Assembly: GCA_017506865.1 (NCBI GenBank)
Contig: JAFCMP010000523.1
Location: 248,001 to 312,000, forward strand
Direction of reading: 5' to 3'
DNA length: 64,000 nt
DNA from: Tribonema minus
Lineage: Eukaryota > Sar > Xanthophyceae > Tribonematales > Tribonemataceae
Shown here: positions 2,136 through 63,200 of the stretch, piece after piece
Numbering within the stretch: position 1 is the stretch's first letter
Layout of the letters: each line of letters begins with the position of its first letter
Notes under the pieces: model-generated
The model's input: only the letters and a program-made list of their open reading frames with translations
The model's database searches: none
Told to the model about the DNA's origin: nothing
Made by a program: the position numbers and the translations under genes

Positions 2136-5100
2136 TCAGCTTTGCGCGCCACGCTCAGCAACAACGCCCTGAGCCGCCCGGGCAGCGCGGGTCAGGGTTA
2201 GAAGTAGAGCCTTGCAACCTGCAACGACTGCAAGCAGAGCGACGCAGGCCGAGGTGAAAGCGTGGAATTTTGCACTGAGTCAATGTACGTGAAGTACGCA
2301 TACGCAGCCTTTGTGAAGCTAAGACTTGACAATACAGGTTGCACATGGCAAAAACCGGCAGTACAAAGCTCAATTGAAGCATGCCTTCTGCAGCACTCAG
2401 TCAAGACGCCCAATAGCCTTCATGGCGCGCATGCAGTGCCACCTACTCGTACTTGACTCATACTCACGCTCCCAGGTGCGGCCGTGCGGGTTGAGAGACT
2501 TGGGGCTGTTCTCTGTGATCTCCGTCATGGGTATCATACATGTCCTGTTGTTGCACACGCCCGCGCAAAAGGCAGTGTAGCCCGCCATCACACCATGCAC
2601 GGCATTCTGCGCCAGCTGCAGGCACAGAATCTGGGGGGCTCAAGAGCGTGCGGCGAGTGGGGGGGGGGGGGGGGGGCTGCACTGAGATAAGTTGAATCGG
2701 AGGCGCCCATGCAGCGGCATGCAACTTTCACAACTGTACACGCAGGTGCTCGCCCACCTCCCTTCATCAGTGCTACACCATTTCGACAGGTCATGCAGCA
2801 TGGGGGGGGGGGGGGGGGGAGTTACGAGGCAACAGAGGTTGAAGTTGAGTGTTCTGAGACCACATACCGAGAGGCAGCAGCACGTTGACAGAGGCGCACG
2901 ACACCTTTGTGCGCGCGACGACTGAACCTGCAACAACCTCAACGCACCTGGTCAAACGCGTTGGCGGCGACGGAGCGGACCGCGACGCTGGGGTCGATGT
3001 ACTTGACGGTCACGGGCCTGCACTTCCTCTTGAAGTACGCCTCGATCTCGCACTTCAAGAAGGGGCCGATCGAGGGGGCGGGCTGGCCGGCGGCGCGCGC
3101 CTCGGCGGCCGCCTCGCTGAGCGCTGGCTGCCCGGCGCCGTCCGACACGACCACGACGGCGTAGCCCTGCTTCTTGACGACGCGCTCCAGGTGCGGGAGG
3201 CACCCCTGCGGGGAGCGTCCCCGATGAGCAAGCGCGTATTGAGGTTGGGGCACTGAGTGGACGGATAACAGGAAAAAGGGTGCAGTTTACGTTGATCGTC
3301 CTTTTTCAATCAGGTGGCCCGTTGCCGCGCGTGCACCCCTCCCTCACACACGGCCTGAGCATGTCGCAAGCACCACTCACTCGGAGCTCTAATGACATGG
3401 TGTAGCCCTGCTTCTTGACCACGCGCTCCAGGTGCGGGAGGCACCCCTGCGAGGAGCGTCCCCGATCAGCAAGCGCGTGTTGAGGTTGGGGCACTGCAAA
3501 CTCGACGCAAACGACAGAAATAGAAAACGTGTACAGTCTACACTACTGCTCCTTTGAATCAGGTAGCCCATTGCCGCGCATGGTGTACGCATGTGGCAAG
3601 CACTGCTGAGCTTGAATTATGCAGATGACATCCCGCTTTTCTGCGTGCGACCATGCAGCACCCGTCGATGGATGGCGCTGGCGTGGGTATAGTGACTTCT
3701 AAACTGTAGGATCAGTGGGCCTGCCCCCAGGTTGCGCTGACATTTCAGCTTCGTGGGTGGTGCCGCAGCGCTGCTAGCAAAGGCGAGGCAGGCACATATG
3801 CCACCGCGGGCTTGCGCACAGTACCTATGGCGGCACCGAGAACCGCGCGTTGACAGTTGAATTCATCTGCGCTGCTGTGTGCGCCAACTGCAGACGAATG
3901 AGTTGGCGCTGCTCTGCATACTGATGTTCATGCTCTCCGCGAGTCACCCATGCCCAAATGCAAAAGCAGAGGCCCCGCACTCGCGCAGACACAGGGCACG
4001 CCTGTTTGTGCGGAAGGTTCCACTGATGACGTGGCAGCACCCGCGCGGGCTGCAACAGCGCAGCAAAGCGCACCGCCCCTCGCCCTCATCGCGTGACCAG
4101 CAAGGCCTGGATGCAGACGCGTGTGCAAAGCGAAGCGCGTGCCATGGCGCGCATGCACGCCTCGCTGCCGCAAACGCTGTGACTAGCGACGTGGCAGCAG
4201 ATCAGCAGAGCAAGTTGCAGTGCTCAGACTCACGTTCTTGCCCTCCAGGACCACGGGCACCTCTGGCACCAGGCACAGGTCGACGTCGCCCGACGCCATC
4301 GTCGCGTAGGCGGCCAGGTAGCCGGTGCTGAGAGCACGCAAGCAGTCATGCAAGCGGCAGCAGCAGCGGCAGCAGCAGCAGCGGCGGCAGCAGCAGCAGC
4401 AGCAGCGGCGGCGGTGGCGTCAGCGCGCAAGCCTCTTCTCACTGTCGGGCCATCAGGAAGAGGCACGTGCAGGTGTGTGAGCCGATGCAGTGCGCTGAGA
4501 CAGCGCCACTGGCCACGCGCTTGCAGCAGCAGGCTCGCGTAGCCCTGCCGCCTTGCCTTGCCGCGGGCGTGAGAACATATGTGCATATGGTGTGCGCAAG
4601 CGCTTTCAGCCAAGGGTCTCAGCAGCACCAGTAGTAACCATCATCAGATTTATCAAAATGCATTGCAGTGTTTGGAGTGTTGAGCTCTGGCATCACATGC
4701 AGTACACGTATTTTCATTACCTGCGGCCCATCAGCTTCACAATGCCGATGCCGTTCGGCACGTTGCACTTGGCCTCGATGGTGGCGCAGCGTATGGCATT
4801 CTGCGCCGCTTCCACCGCAGTCATGAAGCCGAATGACCTGTCGATGATGTCTGTGACCACATGGACAATGAGGGCAAAGTGATATACTTCTTGAAGTAGA
4901 TGATTGAGGACTGGTGGTGACCATTGCCAAGAATAGGCAGTGCACGTGTGGAAAGTCCCAAACAAACAGACAGACAGCGTGAAAAATCAGCACTCAGTAA
5001 GTGACTCAAGTTTGCTGCACTTTTGATGAAGCATACAAATGAGGGGTTAGAGGGTGTGCACTGCACTGATTGTACTCCTTGGAAACTGCAGCATGAACAC

Positions 5101-16300: not shown

Positions 16301-19300
16301 CCAGTGCCATGCTTGCGGATCATGCGTCACTCATGGCATCGTTGCGGTTCACAGACTCCAGTCGTATCACAAAGGGCCAGCGGTTAGTAGTGCCGCGCTG
16401 CTGTAGCAGCGTCGACTGGTGACCGGTGCGCGTGGCCTGCTTTTAAGGTCTGCAGCATGGCCAGTACCACACCCCGGACACATGCAACTGCGCACACACA
16501 CATGGCGGCGTGAGCATTGAGACAGGTGCACACCGCAGCGTGCAGTTCTCCGCAGGCACCTGGAAAGCGCATGCCGCTAGCGCATCAGCTGGACCTCCCA
16601 CGGTCAACGACGACGTCGCGCCTGGTGCACAGCCAGCGCTGCCGCGCCAAAGTCGCCCAAAAGCTCAATGGTGACGACGACGCGTCTTGCGCGCTGCCAG
16701 CACCGCCACGCCGCAGCTCCTTACAACTATATAAAGTTTGCTATTGAAACTTCAACAATGGTGACGCACCTGGTGCGCCGCCAGCGCCGCCGTGGTGCAG
16801 CCGCTCGCCGCCACCGTCACGAAGAACGTGGTCGCGGACTGTCCGACGATGGCCATGGAGATGGGCGCCCCCAGCCCCAGAAACTCCTTCATGCGCTCCA
16901 GCGTCGGCAGCTGTGGGCCCTGTGGCATGCGCTTGAGCACTGTCGCCAGCAGCATCGCCGCGCCGAGGTACTGTGGGCGGGGGGGCGCATGAGGGAGAGT
17001 CAACGACCACGCCCGCGTGCATGATGGAGCCGTGCAAGTTGAAGTTGAGTGTCCACAGCCGTGCAGCGACTCTTTCACGGTGCGTGGCGGCGTGAGCGCT
17101 GCCACCAACGGCAGGATTGTGTGGACAGCTGCACGCCCGGTGGCATGCGCCTGAGCGCTGTTGTCAGCAGCATCGCGCACTGGTGTTGCCACGGGGTCGC
17201 AACGGGCGGCGCGGGCGCAACTGAGAGTCAATGGGCACATCCGTCTCCATGTGTGACACAACTCCATGTGTGACACAAAAAGTTGGCTGACCGCTGCGCG
17301 CTGGCAATTGTGATGTGACACAAGACGTCGATGGACGCATTGGCTGAGCAATGCAAACAGTGTGGCATCACTGCAGCCGGTGCCATACATCGAGGGTAGG
17401 GGGGGGGACAAGACGGCGCAGTTACGGTACGTTCAATCGAAAAAGTAGATGCAACACACTTCATGTGCTTGAAGAGCGAGGGATAAGACACACGCACGCT
17501 TGACTCGTTGAAGCATGGCTTGTCTCTAACCCTAATGCTAGCAAGAGCTGGCATCGCAAGCTGTTCGCACCGGCTCTACGCAGCGTTGCAGTGCCAGCTG
17601 CATCGGACACCATACCATTCAAGTGATTTTGTGCGCAGCATGCGCTCTGATGAGGGTAGCATCTCTGTCGTACAACGCCATGCCACAACAAGAGTTGAGG
17701 TTTTAGTGTACTTGAAGTACTGTTAACAACTATATACTTCTATTTACAGTTGCATCGCTGCATCTCGATACTCTCTCTCTCTCTGCGTGGTGTCATTGAC
17801 AGAGCTGCCACGCACGGCGCCACTGCAGGCCATCTGGCGCCACCCACTACCCACTGCAACGAACCCCCGTCTCTAAACTTCAACACCAATCTCAACAGTA
17901 GCCTGCAGCGCACCTGAGCAGCGGTGGTCGCAGCAGCAGCGCCCGTGATCCCCATCCCCAGCCCCAGCACCAGCACTATGTCCGCCACAAGATTGGTCAG
18001 CGCGCTAACGCCGCACGCCTCCAGCGGCGTCTTGATGTCCTGCACGAGAGCGCGGGGGGGCAGGGGCAGCGGGAAATGTTGGCAAACGCGCAGTTGCAGC
18101 TGCAGCGTGGGTAGCGGTCGCTTTTGGGTGTTGTGCCACATGTGCCAGAAGCGCTGCGCTTGACTGCAACGGCGTGACAGTATAGTCAATGCATTGCGCT
18201 GCGGAGTAGTAGAGCACTTGCCTGCCCTCCTCCCACACAACTAACTACACACGGCCCACAGTAGCATCGCAAGGTCAGCCTTGTCATGGCGTGCAACTGC
18301 ATTGCAGAGACCCAGAGAAGCAATGTGTTCATCAGGAACTGCCCAAGGCCCGCTTGCCCTTGAGCAAAACACACACCACGCTCAGCCTCCCCCCCCCAGA
18401 GCATCGCTGCCGCCGGCGCCGCCTCCGGTTCTGCGTAACAGTGACAGCTCACTGCCGCCCAACATTGCTTCACCGCACGCGCCTGCCCGCCTTTCACCGC
18501 ATGCGCCTTCACCGCACACGCTCATGCGCCCACCTTTCGCGCGAGGCACGCCCCCTGCAGCGCCATGGTGAGCGTCACCGCTGGAAATCCGAGCGCGCGT
18601 ATGCGCGTGTACTCCAGCGCGTACGGCAGCACCTCCGCCGCGCCGGGCGCGCTCCCCAGGAACAGCAGCAGCACGCCGCGGCCGCGCAGCAGCAGCGCCG
18701 CCGTGGTGGCGGCGCCGACCGCGAGCGCCACGAACGCGCCGGTGCACGTGGCGGCGTCCGCACGCGCGGGGTCGCGCTCGGCGCGTGCCGCCGCGACCAG
18801 CGCTGTCGTAACTGACGCTAGGAAGGTGTAGACGTCTGCGGTGACGAGGGGGGAGGGGGGGGGACGGGGGGCCGTGAAGTGGTTGATGCAGTGAAGGGGG
18901 CAGTGGGTGCTCAGGTCATCGCACTGCATGCGATGGTGCTTGGAGTGCGGGCGGGCTGCGGTAGGCGCACGCAGCAGGCAGGTGCCCCGTCATAAGACTT
19001 CAACGTAGGTGTACGATGTGCCACCATTGACGACCACCTGACAACATTAGCTGCGATCTTTGTCTTGACAGAAGAAGTATGATGCATGACAAAGTGCTTG
19101 CACATTGTTGTTTGCGCTTTGTTGTGCTGCATCAGGATGCAGCAATGGTCTCTTCACAGCAGCCTGCCGCAGCAGCAATGCCAGCAGCTTATAACGCCAG
19201 GCGTTCAACAAGCAGAGTCGAAGTGGACGCAAGTCAGCTTTGATACATGGGCTGTGGTATATGATGGCACTGAAACCAGTTTTGACGCAAGCTGATGAAA

Positions 19301-40535: not shown

Positions 40536-41569
40536 AGCGTGCGGCTGCCCGGCACCTCCCTCTTGGGCACGGTGAAGTGGAGCGTCCCGTCCTGCAGCGA
40601 CAGTAGCACGAATGCACATGATGAGTTAGAGGTGATGTGCCGCATGTGCTGGTGCAGGGTGCCAGTCACGCATGCGCTGTTCCATTGATGCTTACACTGC
40701 CAGGCAGCCGTGAAGCATTAAGTTTGACCTGTTGCATGCGTCAACAAGCACAATCATGTCGGCAGGTGCTTTCAGAATTGTGCAGGGCGTGCAGGGCTGT
40801 GTCATGGACATGCTGCCATCGCACCGGCTACATGGCACTGCAGATGCACCGTGTAACTGACAACTTAAAAGGCAGAAACCCAGCAACACAATGCACACAG
40901 CTTATACGGTCATGTCCACAACGTGTTGTAATGCAATCCAAAAGCTCACTGTGAAGTGTTCCCACCTTGAGCTCCACCTGGGCCTTGCTGAGGTCGGCTG
41001 TCTGCGGCAGGACCTGGGTGCGCTGCGCCTTGCCAAACGTCCTCTCCCTGACCAGCCAGCCGCCCTCGGTCTCCTCCTTCTTCTCCTCCTTCCTCTCCGT
41101 TGTGATGGTGATGGAGTTGTTGCTTTCATCTACGTTGATGTTGATCTCCTCCTTGCTGACACCCGGCATATCCACCTTCATCTCGAAGGCGGTCTCGGTG
41201 TCCTGCAGGTCAGTCCTGAGCAGGCCTCCGATGCCTCGGTGGATGTTCATGCTGCCGCCAAGAGGGAAGGCAGTGAGGGCGGCCGTCGGGAACAGGAAGT
41301 CGTTCTCGAAGTCCTGTAAAAGGCGAGGAGCGGTAGAGCGCACGGCGTGAGCTGCAGTTGCCGCGAAAAACGAGCAACATGCTTCGCCTCTCACAACCAC
41401 ACATACTTGATGGATGCTGCGTCAGGCTCGATGCTACCCAGGCTGCAGTTGCCAGACGAGCCCAAGATCCACTAAAAACCATCGTACAACGCGGGGCACG
41501 CGTGCTTACCTGCAGCAGCCTGTCGAATCCAGTCCTGAAGCGGTCCTGTGGGCGGTGGCTCAGCGACAT
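40523..41569 (-). CDS. Small heat-shock protein (HSP20/alpha-crystallin), copy 2
   Basis: Exons 41569-41510, 41313-40966 and 40591-40523 (60, 348, 69 nt) encode 158 aa nearly identical to copies 1 and 3. Differences include MNIHRGIGG, LQDTETAFE and EETEGGWLV. The third exon ends SRTLSIK. It is a chaperone of the HSP20 family with a complete alpha-crystallin domain (PGVSKEEININVDESNNSIT, VPKREVPGS). It lies in direct tandem with copy 3, about 2.6 kb away, and shares with it the promoter, introns' ends and 3' flank, so the pair arose by segmental duplication. Its promoter carries paired heat-shock elements. Confidence 0.93.
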
Positions 41570-43149: not shown

Positions 43150-44125
43150 TCACTTGATGCTGAGGGTGCGGCTCCCGGGCACCTCCCTCTTGGGCACGGT
43201 GAAGTGGAGGGTTCCATCCTGCAGTGACAGCAGAGCGTGTGCACAAGATGGATGTGTGAGAAGTGACGCGTTTGCCAGTGCACGGTACCAGCCCGCAAAA
43301 ACAGCGGTGCTGAGCATTGCAGAAGATTATGCATTGTTACTGCCACCTCGCATCGCATGCACTGTTACTTGTTCTATTGGCTCTGCTGACGACATGACCA
43401 GACAACAAGCCAGCGACATGCTGATATGTGAACACATGTCAAACAATAGAGGTGAGCAAACATTCTACTACACAGTTGAGTCCACAGCATGATGCAATGC
43501 AGTCCAAAAGCTCAGTGTTGTCCATACCCACCTTCAGCTCCACTTGGGCCCTGCTGAGGTCGGCTGTCTGTGGCAGGACCTGGGTGCGCTGTGCCTTGCC
43601 AAAGGTCCTCTCCCTGACCAGCCAGCCGCCATCAGTCTCCTCCTTCTTCTCCTCCTTCCTCTCCGTTGTGATGGTGATGGAGTTGTTGCTTTCGTCTACG
43701 TTGATGTTGATCTCCTCCTTGCTGACACCTGGCATGTCCACCTTCATCTCGAAGGCGGTCTCGGTGTCCTTCAGGTCGGTCCTGAGCAGGCCTCCGGTGC
43801 CCCGGTGAGTAACCATGCTGCCGCCAAGCGGGAAGGCAGTGAGGGCGGCCGTCGGGAACAGGAAGTCGTTCTCGAAGTCCTGCAAGGCGAGGAGCGGCGG
43901 TAGGCATCGTCGTGAGCTCCAGTTGCTGCAGGAACGAATGAGTCGCCATCAATAACAGGATACCTGCCGGATGCTGCAGCAGGCTCGATGCTACCCAGGT
44001 TGCAGCTGCCAGACGAGCCCTAGATCCACTTACATCCGTCGTGCAGCACACATGCTTACGCTTACCTGCAGCAGCCTGTCGAATCCAGTCCTGAAGCGGT
44101 CCTGCGGGCGGTGGCTCAGCGACAT
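43150..44125 (-). CDS. Small heat-shock protein (HSP20/alpha-crystallin), copy 3
   Basis: Exons 44125-44066, 43879-43532 and 43218-43150 (60, 348, 69 nt) encode 158 aa, start MSLSHRPQDRFRTGFDRLLQ. The arm reads SMVTHRGTGGLLRTDLKD. The alpha-crystallin core is as in the other copies, and the end is SRTLSIK. It is divergent from the large PH-ankyrin-WW gene (44489), with 363 bp between start codons. It is an ATP-independent holdase by family; compartment is not evident, as no targeting peptide is seen. Confidence 0.93.
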
Positions 44126-54240: not shown

Positions 54241-57194
54241 GCCGCCGCCGCCACCGCTGCCGGCGCCCCACGCACCCACCTCCTTGTTCTGCTCCTTGTC
54301 GCGCAGATCCACCTCCATCTTCTTGAGCTTGGTCGTCCAGCCCTCTATCTTGCGCTGCAGCTGCTCCTCGGACGGCGTGTTGGCAAACATGTGTGAGCCC
54401 TCAAACTTGCGCTGCGTGAGCTCCTTCTTGGCCGTCGCGGCCGCCTCCGCCAGCTTGGTGGCCGCCACCTGCGAGCGTGCGCACGACGCAGTGGCGCATC
54501 AGCGCAATGCGGCTGCAGACACATCTGAATCTTGTTTTTCGGATGCTCTTTATCATGAAGCTCCCTTGATGATGACACATGACTGCAACATTATTCAAAG
54601 TTTGCGTGTGCTGTTGAGTGTTTTTCAAAGGAGGGGCTCGCAGCCGCTCAGTGCTGTCCCTCGCAGCATATGCACAATATGGGGCACTTATTGCGCACAT
54701 GCAAAAATAGTATAGTGATGGACAAGGGGCGCTTGTGCTCTCCAGTTGCTGGTGGTGCACTTCGCGATGTGATAACAGTTGCGTACTGTATATACGTACT
54801 AGCTAGTGATGCCCACTGGCGGACATGGGTAAACTTGATTGCGCCAACAAGCGTAAACTCCACCCTTCGCATTCGTCATTTCCAATATGCCAACTAACTC
54901 ACCTCACAACCTGATTATCAGTGCTTGTAGCTTTTGTGCGGTCCTTCTCGTGGGCAGGAACACCCTGCCATCAATCACAAATATCCACAGGCTGCGGGGC
55001 ACGCTGTCACACAAGCCGCTGCAGCATTCCCATCGACAGCAGTTGCAGCAAAGCTGCAGCGCCAGCCCCTTGGTGCCACACGAACCCATGCTGACTCAGA
55101 CTCTTGCAACTCTGACCCTATCTTGATAAAAAGGCATTGGCTTCACGTGCATCAAGCGCGGCTCTAAACCACTGAGCCCCGCGTCTCTCCCACATCACAA
55201 CTGCCACTTACAAGTTTACCAATCGGTCATTGTTCACAGTGGCGGCGCTCACCTTCTCTTCGCTGGTTGTGGCGTTGGCCTTTGCGTCCTTTGCCTTCTG
55301 AATCGCCGCTTTTACCTGCATGCGTTGAAGAGGAGCACGAAGCACGATGCGCCCATGCTAATCAGACTTGGTGGGCGAAGGCACTTGCGGAACACACCGT
55401 TGAGCGGACGGGAGCAACGCGTGTCCATGCAATACGCGGGTGTATGCAAGTGAACAGGAGGGAACTGGCGGGTGCCGTGGCACAGTAACACTTTGCACTT
55501 CAATAAAAAGCAATCACGCGTCTCGGCAGTTCACTTCACTTCCGACCAGGCAGGCAGCCAGCTTCTGCTGCGCTCAATGCACCGGACCAGTCAGGCTGGC
55601 GCTGTAAACTAAGAGCACGCACCTACCGAGAGCATACAGCAGAAACAATGAGCTAAAGCATGCCATGGCACTCAACTTTCAGCCATCCTCCACGTCCTGC
55701 AACGAAACGCGCCCTAAGCTGTTAGTGTCATCCAGACCTTGCCCTACTTGCCCAGCCTGAGACACGCCGTGGCCTGTGCCTCAGCCAAAACTTCAATCCT
55801 ATTCCCGCTACTTCAACACGTGTGCACAAAAACCTCACCTTCTCCTCGTCGTCGTCGGCGTCCTGCGACGAGCCCCTCCCCTTGAGCGGTATCTTCTTGG
55901 CCTTGCCGTCTTTCGCCAACTTCAACCACGCCTTGAGGTCCGCGCGCTGCTCCTTGACCTTAGCCACGCGCTCGCCCAGGTTCTCAAACGACTTCAGCAT
56001 GGCGCCGCTCACCGTGCGCTGGTGGTTGCAGAGGATGGCCACCTCGCGGTTCGCGTTGTTGTACTCGACAACCTGGGGGGGGGGGGAGAAGGGGGAGGGG
56101 TCAGCGCTGGGGCTGCATTTAGGGCACCACGTTTGCGTTGTTATACTCAGCAACCTGGGGGTTGGGGGGGGAGGGGGGTTTGGGGAAGGGGGGGGGATAT
56201 GAGCGCTGGGGTTGCATGTGGGGCAACTTATGAGCGCGGCCCGATGCACTGGTTCAAACCGCTCTCTGCGCGGCGCTGTCAGAGAAGAACGCCACGTTTC
56301 GCAACATTGTCAGACCCAGCAATGGATTGTCGCAGGCCTCATCTGCAAGCCAAGACGCTAGCTGCCAAGCTAGCGGGCCCACACTGAATTTGTCACGCAG
56401 ACACACACAGAACACGCACGCGGGAGGAGGGGCGCAGGGGGTGCTACACTCTCATTGACATGTAAACACGAACAGAACACGCGCGCGTGGGAAAAGGGGT
56501 CACAGCAGAACAGGACCGCGGGGGGGAGGGGGCGGGGGGGGGATGACGCACCTTGGCCTGCACAGTCATGTTCTTCAGCGCGTCTGCGCTCGGCAGCTGC
56601 TGCTGCAGCGTCTCGCTCGCGTTGTACGTGCGGAAGACCTTGGCGCTGAGGCCGGGCATGAGGCTCTGCAGGTGCTTGTTGAGCGTTGTGGGGTCGATCT
56701 TCTGGAAGACCTGCAAGACACATGGAAGGCAACGCGCGCGCTGATGCTGTGAGAGGGGCGAGACTGTGCGTATGCGCCAAAGCAGCACACACGGCGCCGG
56801 TGGAGCTGTGCAGAGTCTCTCACAGGCGGGACTGAGCATGAGTGCAGAGCGGGACACAACCGGCACTGGCTGAGCGATGCAGACCGCATACAGTTCCTGC
56901 ATGACATGTGCTGATGACGGTGGCGCACACGTCGCACCACACCTGCCGGGCAATGGGCCAGGATCATTGACTCATGGCGTTGAACGCATATGGCGACATC
57001 TGATTCAGCACTACAGTGCATGAGGACACAAACGCTGCAGCAACGACGAATTCTCGAACACATCTGTTGCCTCTAGTGCTCTGCAGGTCGCCCGCACAGC
57101 AAGTGGCACTGACCAACTCCACGTGCGCACAGCGCGCCGAGTGTGCACGCCTGCGGAGCGTTGCCTCAGCAGCGGCAGCGGCAGCAGCAGCAGC

Positions 57195-57237
<43 letters not shown>

Positions 57238-60200
57238 CGCTGAGCAGCGCCGCTGCGCGCCTGCGGAGCGCTGCCTCACCTGCTCGGCGGGCTTGCGCCC
57301 CTTGCAGAACGCCGTGAGGTTGTCGAAGACCTTGCTGCCAATGTCGCCATACGCCGTGAAGTCAATGTTCTGCTTGAAGAGCATGGAGTCCTTGCCCAGG
57401 AACTCGAGCTCCATCTCGCGCGTGCCGGCAGGGCCGAACGTCATGTGCTCGACGCGCAGCGTGCAGCAACCGACCGTGTCCGCTTCGTCCTCGCCCTGGC
57501 GCGCAGCGAGTCAGCGAGTGAGTGAGTATATGAGTAAAGAGTCGTGTGCTCGACGCGCAGCGTTCCGCAGCCAACCGTGTCCGCTTCGTCCTCGCCCTGG
57601 CGCGCAGCCAGTCAGCGAGTGAATGAGTGAAGAGTCATGCGCTCAACAAGTAGATGAATGAAAGAGCAAAGCCAACATCGCAGAGCGTCATGGTATACAC
57701 GGACAGCTTCCAGCTTACGCCTCGAAATTCACGGAGCAATGCTGCTGGGCAGGGCACAGCCCTCACCTTCTCGCCGCCGACGCGCAGCGCGAGCTCGTCG
57801 ATGAGGTACATGGTCATACATTACATGTACTTCAAAGTATGCTGCTTCTACATGCTATATGCTGCGTACAACTTGATGTTTGCGGAGCGTTGCTGCTGCG
57901 CGATGGCAACACTCACCTTCTCGCCGCCGACACGCAGCGCGAGCTTGTCGATGAGCCACATGGCCGTCGCCAGCTGGCGCATCTCGCTGGTGCTGGCGTT
58001 GAGGCCGCGCTCGTAGTTGCGCCGGATGGCATCGATGTGGCCCTTGAGGCGCATGGCCTGCGCGCGCGCGCATGGGCGGGCACGGGGCGCACTTCAACAC
58101 GTGCTATCAAGGCTGTTTGTGAAGCATGTTGTGCATTTGCTCGGGAGCGGCGAAGGGGGGCACATAGCGGACGTCAACAGGTGTAATTAAGGCTGCTTTG
58201 TGAAGCGTGATGTGTGTTTCCATGGGAGCGGCAAAGGGGGGCACGTTGCGCCGGATGGCGTCGATGTGGCCCTTGAGGCGCATGGCCTGCGCGCGCGCGC
58301 ATGGGCGGGCACGGGGCGCACTTCAACACGTGCTATCAAGGCTGTTTGTGAAGCATGTTGTGCATTTGCTCGGAAGCGGCGAAGGGGGGGCACATAGCGG
58401 ACGTCAACAGGTGTAATTAAGGCCGCTTTGTAAAGCGTGATGTGTGTTTCCATAAGAGCGGCAAAGGGGGGCACGTTGCGACGGATGGCGTCGATGTGGC
58501 CCTTGAGGCGCATGGCCTGCAAGCGCGCGTGGGCGGGCAATGGGGCGCGCTTCAACATGTGCTATTAAGGCTCTTCGTGAAGCGGGATGTGCAGTTGCAC
58601 AGGAGCGGCCGAAGAGGGGCGCGCAGCAGCAAAGATGCGCGACAGAAAGCGCGACAGTAGGCTGCATGTGAGGAAGGGGCGGAGGGGGTTCTATGGCGCA
58701 GCAAATGCTAATTAGATGTTCGCATCTGAAAAAACGCCACAATGCAGGAGATACTGCGTTCTCGCCACAAGGCGGCGGGGACTCACAAAATCTAGAAGTT
58801 CACTTTCAACAGCGAAGCTGGAAACCATTCGTGCACGCACGCCGGCTGCAAATGAATTCTGGCGCACGCGCCCACCTTGTTGTACTTCTCCATGTCGCTC
58901 TTGCCCTTGAATGAGGAGCTCGCGCTGAGCATGGCGTACTTGTTCATGTTGTTGATGTTCTCCTTCCACGTCGACAGCCACGCGACGCCCGGGTCGTGCT
59001 GCACGTTGCCCCACGCAAAGCCGGGCACGGGGCACTGTGGCACCTGCGCAAGAAGGGGTAAGGTTAGAGTTAGGGTTGGGGCTTGTGCTGTACATTGTTA
59101 GGGTTAGGGATAGGGATCGCGCTGCACGTTGCCCCACGCAAAGCCGGGCATATGGCACTGCGGCACCTGCACAGGTAGGGAGTGCGCGGAGACGCATTTA
59201 GCATTGGTCACAGTGACGCAACTTGCAGTACCTGCATGAACTTGAACACTGTACTGAAGCGCTCAGCATCGGTCACAATAGCGCAACTTGCAATACGTGA
59301 AAAAACGGCTTCGAGACTTTACCGAGCATGATCACCGCCGCCACACCATTTCCGAACGTCATGGTCTCGGTGGCCTCGCCTCGGCCGCTTCGGCGATTGT
59401 TTGTGGCGACCTGCAACAGGTGCGTGCGCTTCGCAAGCGACACCACAACTGTTGCACACGCTCCCGAACGTCATCACCGAACTTCGCCCCAGCCTCCTTG
59501 CCAATCCACACTCCATCACGCAAGCACGGCTCTCAAGCATCGGCACCAGTGTCGCACACACACCCCGAGCGCAATACCATACTTGTTCAAATTTGTAGTG
59601 TCACCTCACCTTGGCCTCTTCGCCGATGTTGACGGTGACCTCCGACGGATAACGCGCGCTTCTTCAACTTGCAATCATACTTTCAACTTTAAACTTCAAA
59701 TATGAAGTAGCAGCACATCACCTTGGCCTCTTCATCAATGTTGACGGTGACCTCCGACGGGTACGCGTGCTTCTTCACCTTGCAATCATACTTCAAATTC
59801 AAACTTCAAATATGAAGTAGCAGCACCTCACCTTGGCCTCTTCGCCGATGTTGACGGTGACCTCCGACGGGTACGCGCGCTTCTTCAGCTTGCCCGTCTT
59901 GGGGTGCTTGCCGCGGCCGCGGAACAGCCCCGGCGGCTCCATGATGAAGTTGCCCACCTTCTCCAGGTGGCCGTCCACGATGGCGAGGCCAAACAGGTGG
60001 AAGCGACGCTCCTGCAGCAAGCAAGTGGGAGAGTCACCAGTTGATGTTTTAACTTCATCTTTGAGGTTTCCATAAACGCCGGAACACATTTCGTGAGCAG
60101 CGGCGCGGCGAAAAGCAGCGATACGGGGCAAAGTGATCACGTAACAGTTGATGTGTGATGAAGCGCGGCGAATCACACATAACGTGGCTCGTGACGGCAA

Positions 60201-63200
60201 ACGTTTCGTAGGTGGTGACAGAGGGGGTCACATGGTGACCGTCGGCACGCGGCGGGGTGGCGGGAATTAGTGCCGCCACACCCCTCGGTGTAGGCGCTGC
60301 AGGACAACTCGCATGTGATGGAGCGCTGAAGCATGGTTGAAGCTAGGGCTAGCTGACCCTGACTCAATGATGGCCTAAGGGATTAGGGTCAGCTCAAGCG
60401 GTGGATGCAAACGCGAGCATGGACCTCACAACGCAGCAGCAGCACCAGCCGCACCGGTGCACCGTTACCTCTGCCGATAGAGGCAGCGAAGGCCTCATGC
60501 ATGCCGGGAGAAACCTGTGACAATGCGTATGAGCTGGTGCGTGCCCGAGCGCGCTGGCAACATTGGTCTCTCCGCGGAGCGCAGCAAGGCACATGGCGCC
60601 CCAGCGCTACGCTTTCGCAGCCCCCCGATGAAGCGACTCCGCATTTCCACGCCCTACCCTGCAGAACCATCACAATCCCCCACTGTTGACAAAATGCGGT
60701 GACCGCTGCTTCAGTATGCGCGTCCTTACACGACCTGCGTCTGCAGCGCGCCCGCCGCCCCTCACTCCTGAGCCTCACCCGTCAACCGCTCATAACCCTT
60801 TTCTGATGCCCTGCCCCCCCCCCCCCCCTCCCCTGCCCCCGATAAACCACCCGTCACCCTTCATCAATCCCCCCCCCCCTTCCCCCCCCTCCCACCCCTT
60901 GCGCGCGCATCAGCCACACCAGCTGAGCACTGCCACGACGGCGGACGCGCGCGCGCGCACCTTCTCCGCCTTGGCAGCGGCGCGCTCCCCGTCCGTGGCC
61001 GCCTTCTTGATGAGGCGGCGCTGCTGCAGGTGCGCGCGCATCGCGCCGAAGTCGCACTTGTCGAACTTGGCGTTCTTGAGGGGGTGCCCCGTCGGCATGG
61101 ACTCCTTCCAGTCGCTGAAGAAGTTGGCGCTGAAGACCTTGGCGGTGGCGGCGTCGCCGAGCTGCGCGAGCCATGGTGAATAAGCAAAGCAGCGGGGGGT
61201 GAGCACTGCTACTTGACGGGGCTGTCGAGCCTTGCATCAGGGTCGAAGCCCATGAAGTATGTCAACATTGTGGTTTCATAGAAATTTGGACATGTAGTCG
61301 TGGCGTCGCCGAGCGGCGCGAGCCGTAGCGAATGAGCGCAGCAGCGATGAGCGGAGGAGGGTGAGCGCTGCTGCTTGACGGAGCTGTCGCGCCGGGGTCA
61401 AGGCCGATGTACTTCAACATCACGGTTTGATTGGCACGTTGAGCCAGTGGCCGCGGCGTCGCCGAGCTGCGAGCGCGCGCAGCGAACCAGCGCAGCAGCG
61501 ATCACAGAGGAGGGTGAGCGCTGCTGCTTGACGGAGCTTGTGCGCCGGGGTCAAGGCCTACGTACTTCAAAATTGCAGTCTGATTGAACCAGTGGTGGTG
61601 GCGTCGCCGAGCTGTGCGCCAGCGCTGCAAACGAGCGCAGCAGCGATCAGCAGAGGAGGGTGAGCGTTGCTGCTCGACGAAGCCGTTGAGCCTTGTCGCA
61701 AGCTGCATCGAGGTCAAAGTCTTTGTACTTCATACTTGCGGTTTCATGGCACTTAAACCAGTGGTCGCCATGCTGCGAGCGGAGGAGCGCAGCAGTGACC
61801 AGCGGAGTGCGAGCGCTGCTGCTGGACAGAACTGCGAGCCGGGTCTGAAGCCGTGCCGCATCGTGGGTCAATGTGTATACTTCAAAGTTGATGTTTGACT
61901 GGCACTCGACCGCAGCTACGCAGGCAAGCGGTTAACCTCAAAGGCCTTGACAGCACTTCGACGCTGTTGACATAGCGCGGGGATCGCAAAGCACAGCCGC
62001 AGGCGGATTCTGTGCCGCTCTAGCTACATACATGCCCATCACCCGGGGCCCGCAGCAGATGGATGGCAGCATGTAAGCAATGCTCAGACTGCCAGCTTGA
62101 CAGCCTTGAGCGGTGACAGAGTGGTGCGCGGCATGCAATGGCAGCATCGGCGCAGGCAGGCGCGCCGCACAGCGCGGCAGCGCTCTACAGCATCAGCGCG
62201 CGTGCTGCAGTGCACTGCGGCGCCACGACAGCTGCAGTTCACAATGTACCACAGCGCGCCTTTGCACGCACCGCCTGAAATGGTGCGCGCACGCACTTTT
62301 GCCCACAACAGAACCCGACAAAGGACTCAAGTGGCAGCGCACCAGCGGCACGTCACTTCAGCACGCCGAGCAATGGCGCTTGACCATCGCAACTGCAATC
62401 TGTTCCACATCTATTCACGCTCATACCTTGAAGTGCAACGGGATCAGGGCACTACAGCGCGGCCCGAGCTGAGTTTCCGGCGCCAGCCAACACAGAGTGC
62501 AGAACATATGGTGCTGCAACATGCAGCTCCCCCCCCCCCCCCCCCCCCCCCGCGCACACTGCGCACCTGCGGGCCGTCCAGTGGCACGTCCGCAAAGAAC
62601 GTGGCAATCTCCTCGTCCTCCGGCGACAGCTCCATCTCCTCCCCGTCGTACATGAGCGGCACGCCGTGCGGCTCGTACTCGTCCGGGAACGACATGCCGT
62701 TGTGCTCCAGGTGGCTCCACTGGCGCCCCGGCGCGAGCGGCGGCTCCTCCCACCATTTGTACGCCTGCAGCACCAGCGGCAGCGGCAGCAGCGGCAGCGG
62801 CAGCAGTGGCGCGCGCGGGGGGAGGGGGACGGGGGGGGGCTGAGCCGTGTGCCCTTGCGAGAGTAGGTAGATAGTTTGCGGTGCGGGCGTGCCGCACGCG
62901 CTTGGACAAGCGGAGGGCGCCGGCATGAGCGACTGAGCAGCGATGCTGCATACACAGGCAGTTGCAGGAGCGCAGTGTGCGCTGTTTCAAAACGAAGCGG
63001 ATGGAGGGAAAAAGGTGATGACACATGCCGTCAACATTGGTCTCAACAAAGGGGACGGGGGGGGTGACCACACCACATGGCCCGTTGTGCAACTCAAATC
63101 GATGCAACTTTAAGAGAGCACCGCGCCAGACCTCTCCGTTTTCGACGCCAGCATGTCAGGGGGGCCGCAAGCCCCCCACTGCCATCAGAGTCACATCCGA

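Follow-up and report, generated by a model that had tools for sequence, protein, structure and literature searches.

Many introns of Tribonema minus hold stacked, decaying copies of the neighbouring exon edges

Why should the introns of TOP1 in Tribonema minus hold repeated copies of the neighbouring exon edges, splice site included, and is this peculiar to one gene? We addressed this question in a 245-kb sample, made up of one stretch of 64,000 nucleotides (the window) and 19 further loci, with gene models made in this analysis.

Exon-edge copies in TOP1 and across the sample

The first-pass annotation had named seven exon edges of TOP1, which lies on the minus strand, as having copies in the adjacent intron. 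Such a copy was found for 7/7, that of exon 9 being weak. Head-to-tail arrays were detected by TRF, and the best pairwise repeat between 55500 and 64000 scored 136, against 14 for the best of three first-order Markov-resampled sequences. The features of the locus are listed here, followed by two copies in other genes of the window.

55839..56072, minus strand: TOP1 exon 9, acceptor 56072; exact match to annotated protein P0001
56131..56156, minus strand: single, weak intron copy of the exon 9 start, 26 nt; offset 82, identity 0.85, score 18
57280..57495, minus strand: TOP1 exon 7 (annotated protein P0001)
57440-57628: TRF array in TOP1, period 101
57541..57596, minus strand: single copy of the exon 7 start, 56 exon nt, 91%; period 101 (TRF and alignment)
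57767..57813, minus strand: single copy of the exon 6 end, 47 exon nt, 91%; GT retained
57917..58057, minus strand: TOP1 exon 6 (annotated protein P0001)
58016-58619: TRF array in TOP1, period 229
58245..58286, minus strand: first of two copies of the exon 6 start, 42 exon nt, 98%; period 229
58475..58516, minus strand: second of two copies of the exon 6 start, 42 exon nt, 95%
58876..59043, minus strand: TOP1 exon 5 (annotated protein P0001)
59114..59166, minus strand: single copy of the exon 5 start, 53 exon nt, 89%
59380..59432, minus strand: third of three copies of the exon 4 end, farthest and least similar, 52 exon nt, 77%
59602-59893: TRF array in TOP1, period 110
59610..59672, minus strand: second of three copies of the exon 4 end, 62 exon nt, 97%
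59722..59783, minus strand: first of three copies of the exon 4 end, 62 exon nt, 92%; period 110
59832..60011, minus strand: TOP1 exon 4 (annotated protein P0001)
60961..61161, minus strand: TOP1 exon 3 (annotated protein P0001)
61139..61834, minus strand: exon 3 start array, three copies at offsets 152, 305 and 450; AG retained in 2/3
61302-61683: TRF array in TOP1, period 153
3399..3446, minus strand: copy of an exon start (acceptor 3205) in another gene, 48 exon nt, 96%
17121..17176, minus strand: copy of an exon start (acceptor 16970) in another gene, 82%

The window also contains weak edges outside TOP1 (such as donor 46659, 67%, and acceptor 5343, 71%), and in the whole sample at least one copied edge was present in 11 of the 26 genes tested, so the pattern extends past TOP1. 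Known TOP1 exons were recovered by the gene finder, a two-strand version with fixed lengths, which also called intron copies as exons. Before any counting, 14 predicted exons matching larger neighbouring exons were removed and their introns merged; at L011 the removal of two such exons disrupts the reading frame (2 stops), and one of the two may be real.

Usable exon-edge probes numbered 241, the other 45 of 286 borders having a short exon, low complexity or a short intron. At our main cut-off (score of at least 36), a copy was present in the edge's own intron for 32 of the 241; there was none in the introns of other genes (0/4820 comparisons, maximum score 31), in the same exon's other intron (0/200) or on the reverse strand (0/241). 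A laxer score of 28 gave 39/241 for the own intron, 2/200 for the exon's other intron and 3/241 for the reverse strand. The copies are local and lie on the same strand, and the earlier proposal that introns grow by duplication across exon borders is supported, the duplication being recurrent.

Introns at copied edges are also longer, with a median of 1024 nt vs 556 nt at edges without a copy, and repeat-free intron length is alike in the two groups (medians 437-617 vs 475). Repeat arrays make up 19% of intron bases, and border arrays 16%, in the 122 introns examined. The repeats are tandem by TRF at its strict setting, which gave 28 merged records of period at least 60 in the 245 kb. Comparison of loci by BLAST returned 45 matches, just one of which (48 nt, L013:6568-6613) falls inside a border array. 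We also considered a dispersed element or motif as a source; TTGAAGT is frequent in the introns, but its flanks are unconserved, and in places it forms short tandem hexamers.

Decay and layering of the copies

It had been stated that each copy keeps its splice site, which is nearly right: AG or GT is retained in 60/73 copies across the sample and in 9/10 TOP1 rows, with AG present in 26/29 acceptor copies and GT in 34/44 donor copies. Such retention, and the lack of any stop codon among 975 copied codons (5.5 expected), which we leave as an oddity, would suit a role as decoy sites, maintained for the regulation of splicing. However, splice dinucleotide bases are retained at 90/100 (50 of the 66 copies), against the approximately 91% expected neutrally from a copy-branch divergence of about 0.087, and the splice sites are thus not conserved above the neutral rate. 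In the 53 of 66 copies that passed the filter, mismatches in the exon part at codon positions 1, 2 and 3 are 101/1038, 88/1043 and 180/1037 (9.7, 8.4 and 17.4%), which argues for one constrained copy, in the exon, and one free copy, in the intron. Frame-shifting gaps occur in 18/53, and the copies are skipped in the TOP1 gene model and in one transcript-derived L012 protein. The copies decay like junk, as unconstrained DNA, and the earlier suggestion of decoy or cryptic sites kept by selection is unsupported; we consider such a role improbable.

Tandem repeats are prone to misassembly, and the copies could in principle be assembly artefacts. Their divergence from the exon reaches 29%, however, with distinct substitutions and gaps and in a regular age order, and they are present on several contigs, so that an artefact is scarcely credible. 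The order is clear: in 14 of 17 multi-copy arrays the most similar copy is that nearest the exon, where 6.4 would be expected (permutation P 0.00035). The youngest copy lies next to the exon, and it appears that borders were re-duplicated and older copies displaced inwards.

Since exon-sequence tandem copies adjoin introns, one might ask whether the introns arose in the first place from a duplicated exon stretch with AGGT in it, as in the Rogers model. At the 31 borders, however, the nearest copies are found 35-315 nt into the intron, counted from their own border, and bring that border's intron flank with them, the exon's other intron is without copies at score 36, and no intron is bounded by two copies of one AGGT exon stretch. 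An origin of this kind is very unlikely. The intron part of the duplicated unit is at least 45 nt at 16/16 acceptors, but among the 15 donors it can be as short as 9 nt (P 0.036). It is as though acceptor copies had to come with upstream splicing signals of their own. Multi-copy arrays are not significantly more frequent at borders (16/32 border vs 7/19 intron-only, P 0.40, after removal of 2 of the 21 listed intron-only arrays, for which no enclosing intron matched).

We suggest, with a probability of about 0.72, that these introns lengthen through recurrent tandem duplication, which is tolerated at exon edges since the exon-attached splice site stays in use. Tandem duplications, mostly of approximately 100-230 bp, would arise all over the genome. 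If a duplication straddles an exon-intron border, splicing would still use the site attached to the whole exon; the protein would therefore be unchanged, and an extra exon edge and splice site would be left in the intron, where, under no constraint, they would decay. When the border is duplicated anew, the fresh copy would adjoin the exon and the older copies would be moved inwards, so that introns would lengthen from both ends.

Exon-attached sites are in use where this is checkable, namely in the TOP1 gene model P0001, from which the copied segments are absent (a gene model, not RNA), and at the exon 7/8 junction of L012, where a transcript-derived protein (P0170, Trinity assembly; 117/117 residues identical) is without the copied 24 residues. 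We infer that in vivo splicing takes the outer site at nearly every border. When human minigenes with long flanking introns carried two identical 5' sites, splicing went exclusively to the upstream one, proximal to the exon (PMC9225289). This cross-exon proximity rule, shown in human cells (PMC9225289) and not in Tribonema, would explain why a duplicated site deeper in a long intron is ignored. Exon definition is probably what makes the duplications tolerable in Tribonema. Under intron definition, preference would go to whichever copy is closer across the intron (PMC9225289); such border duplications would therefore be harmful, which counts against our explanation.

Placement of arrays at exon borders

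The claim that repeats cross exon borders more often than chance holds for arrays, but the difference is small when windows are counted. With gapped detection at three thresholds, border-crossing arrays were 37/56, 32/51 and 32/48, against 30% in simulations that placed duplications in repeat-free introns only and excluded those spanning a whole intron; a gene bootstrap gave 46-70%. Two-copy arrays alone gave 16/28 (P 0.002), and 18/34 remained when TOP1 and L012 were left out (P 0.004 against 30%, 0.03 against 36%). By contrast, a nearby copy was found for 14.6% of 60-nt windows at exon edges, 11.5% inside introns and 10.4% between genes, which argues against a large excess or strong targeting. 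Among strong ungapped arrays, 23/29 crossed borders vs 8.0 expected from our first placement null and vs 11.5-11.8 with the unit equal to the period; an ungapped simulation put 42% at borders for this score, and the first null had made the excess look larger.

These figures bear on whether borders are true hot spots, duplicated through a break or re-copying event linked to transcription or splicing, one end of which lies approximately 35-60 nt inside the exon and the other in the intron. The roughly twofold excess by gapped detection and the strong ungapped arrays speak for this idea, as does the narrow range of the exon breakpoints, the exon part falling within 35-62 nt at 65% of 31 borders vs 29% simulated. 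However, the window rates differ little, TRF at the strict setting found 8 arrays crossing borders (one, at L006, a coding repeat) vs 8 intronic ones, and tolerance rules alone could restrict the exon part. The arrays are moreover concentrated in few genes, and independent events are therefore fewer than the count. We regard hot spots as doubtful. It is likewise a tentative thought that T. minus borders are preferred for tandem duplication with one end a fixed 35-60 nt into the exon, that splicing or transcription directly steers DNA copying, and that introns add layers at both borders as a tree adds rings. The twofold border-crossing excess over uniform placement is nevertheless seen, and growth by tolerated duplication leaves it unexplained; a purely random neutral process predicts neither this excess, nor the 35-62 nt exon part, nor the absent stops.

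Relation to known systems

Introners are single elements copied into many genes, and the Tribonema pattern resembles them in that introns are changed across many genes of one genome. Tribonema copies are, in contrast, private to one border, none recurring in other genes' introns. With ordinary minisatellites they share head-to-tail copies of regular period by TRF; unlike those, the unit holds an exon edge and a splice site, coding constraint acts on one of the copies, and arrays that cross a border are roughly twice as frequent as simulated. A Drosophila study, to judge by its title, reportedly deals with novel intron positions arising by sliding or tandem duplication. There, too, tandem duplication near introns alters gene structure, but it concerns moved or new intron positions, whereas Tribonema has stacked, skipped exon-edge copies. 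In the potato RdRp gene, an intron-exon structure was duplicated with its 3' splicing signals (PMC4974935). Tandem duplication at the gene level yields extra splice sites in both cases. Here, in contrast, existing introns lengthen, no new intron being shown, and they do so repeatedly, at 5' as well as 3' borders and in 11/26 genes, with copies that appear to be skipped. We found no published description of such a border-copy pattern in the open-access literature searched.

In genomes of this kind, false micro-exons may be a risk for automatic gene prediction, as the 14 such calls by our own predictor illustrate. Intron lengthening is usually ascribed to transposons or to small insertions that go unseen. 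In Tribonema introns the layers of growth are readable, and the order of events is given by similarity. The stacked, decaying copies of an exon edge and its splice site that many of these introns hold look like a record of lengthening by repeated small border duplications.

Copied exon edges in TOP1 and in a wider sample

The T. minus genome comprises 158 Mb in 554 contigs, with the window at C520:248001-312000. Joined exons 2 to 9 of the minus-strand TOP1 gene gave a 499-residue query with 100% identity, over its whole length, to the NCBI entry JKP88DRAFT_169920 (Tribonema minus); all eight exons have a length divisible by three and start at a codon boundary. The first-pass annotation had reported that seven TOP1 exon edges are duplicated, splice site included, inside the adjacent intron. 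Copies were found at all seven, the one at the exon 9 start being a weak 26-nt match from the ungapped repeat finder alone, and most were common to TRF, the ungapped repeat finder and local alignments between exon edges and introns. The exon 3 start copy scores under the cut-off of our edge-probe test (60-nt exon edges aligned to introns, a copy counted at a score of at least 36), which counts five TOP1 edges. Repeat coverage is 34-70% in the five TOP1 introns that bear copied edges, and 0% in the other five listed.

The sample outside the window consisted of 19 stretches of at most 10 kb each from other contigs, and with the window amounted to 245 kb, or 0.15% of the genome. The genes were modelled by us: a hidden-Markov gene finder, seeded with TOP1 and retrained on its own predictions, returned 29 genes, and 143 introns and 286 borders remained once 14 predicted exons, each a copy of a larger neighbour, had been dropped. 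A copy in the edge's own intron was seen for 32 of 241 usable edges (15/117 donors, 17/124 acceptors), and 11 of 26 genes carried at least one. No probe reached a score of 36 in 4820 comparisons with the introns of other genes, and the counts were 0/200 against the same exon's other intron and 0/241 against the reverse strand. Density was uneven, from 9/16 edges in the L012 gene (by Pfam, glycosyltransferase family 20 with CBM20) through 5/20 in TOP1 to 0/16 in locus L008. Pfam matches to NifU, Flavodoxin_2, UCH_1 and Glyco_transf_20 back several carrier genes, three of the seven proteins scanned being without a match. Cathepsin X relatives, one listed as 'Vauche...', align across 99% of the query from locus L019, which was built without the copies. 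We found no description of such a habit in the open-access literature searched, which is weak evidence of novelty.

Other repeats and genes

Telomere-like GGTTAGGG stretches lie in a TOP1 intron (window:59060-59130), and the words ACCCTA and GGGTTA are in excess in introns (ACCCTA 35 vs 19 expected); together these are possibly marks of break repair. In the introns of all loci there are 73 sense-strand occurrences of TTGAAGT (7.2 per 10 kb), and in exons there are 2; some instances are short tandem hexamers. Locus L006 (C1:20001-30000) is GC-rich (69%) with few predicted introns, and contains a ribonucleotide reductase small chain, besides an AAA ATPase match too weak to reach its cut-off; our guess is that it may be an endogenous giant-virus segment. 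Further features were as follows.

window:32723-33313, 40966-41313 and 43532-44125: three closely similar copies of a small gene, the product of which resembles a small heat shock protein
window:11104-11833 and L010:3076-3805: 730 bp repeat in inverted orientation, 99.3% identity, a dispersed copy of recent date
L008, L012, L020, L022 and L023: common dispersed element of about 70-170 bp, in both orientations

Origin of the copies and a probable excess at borders

Copies lie on the same strand and at the same border as their source edge. At 31 borders, the nearest copy stands a median of 162 nt away (10-90%: 110-229) and includes a median of 48 exon nt. The most similar copy is the nearest one in 14 of 17 arrays with at least two copies (6.4 expected, P 0.00035). 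When neighbouring copies are compared, the second resembles the exon more than it does the first copy in 19 of 31 cases, with 9 the other way and 3 ties. This order points to successive duplications at the exon end, not to a single burst, and bears out the earlier proposal that introns grow by duplication across borders.

The further proposal, that repeats cross borders above chance, held in part. By array, gapped detection in 122 introns gave 37 border and 19 intron-only arrays, against 30% border (549/1831) in a uniform-duplication simulation with similar detection. A hand-tallied gene table gave 32 border and 21 intron-only arrays in 15 genes, or 60% border (gene bootstrap 46-70%), and 18 of 34 arrays were at a border with TOP1 and L012 left out. 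TRF gave 8 crossing and 8 intronic arrays at a strict setting and 16 and 11 at a lax one, several intronic arrays (e.g. 61302-61683) being judged clipped border arrays and one crossing array, in L006, a coding repeat. By test window, however, a nearby copy was seen for 14.6% of exon edges (32/219), vs 11.5% of 2949 intron windows, which contain copies themselves, and 10.4% of 1195 intergenic windows. At stricter scores exon edges lead (10.0%, 4.9% and 4.9% at score 60), which constraint by itself could explain. The two tests thus differ in the size of the effect; in this 245 kb sample, a roughly twofold excess of border arrays over uniform placement is likely, though not proven. It could reflect targeting or survival, and the concentration of exon breakpoints at 35-62 exon nt (65% of 31 borders vs 29% simulated) fits either.

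Decay and tolerance of the copies

Were the copies decoy or selected splice sites, as had also been suggested, they should be kept. In 53 of the 66 copies found, the others having been removed by a score or position filter, copy-exon mismatches at codon positions 1, 2 and 3 were 101/1038, 88/1043 and 180/1037. A free copy (t) beside an exon free at third positions only would give about t, t and 2t, which places t near 0.087. A copy branch of that length predicts survival of 91% of splice dinucleotide bases, and 90/100 survive (50 copies; donors 47/56, acceptors 43/44). Together with frame-shifting gaps in 18/53 copies, these neutral values speak against decoy or selected sites, and nothing in them indicates retention of the copies. 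Two observations fit unconstrained decay imperfectly: the near-complete survival of AG in acceptor copies and an unexplained lack of in-frame stops (0 in 975 copied codons in all loci vs 5.5 expected; P 0.0015 on the assumption, not satisfied here, of independent copies).

One transcript-derived protein spans one copied border. In human minigenes, as described in PMC9225289, when two identical 5' sites compete under exon definition, only the site that lies closer across the exon is used; with intron definition the preference goes the other way. The long introns here (median predicted length 523 in the 245 kb sample) fit exon definition, without proving it. The intron part of the duplicated unit goes down to 9 nt at donors and is at least 45 nt at every acceptor, a difference to be expected if the site joined to the exon has to retain signals of its own.
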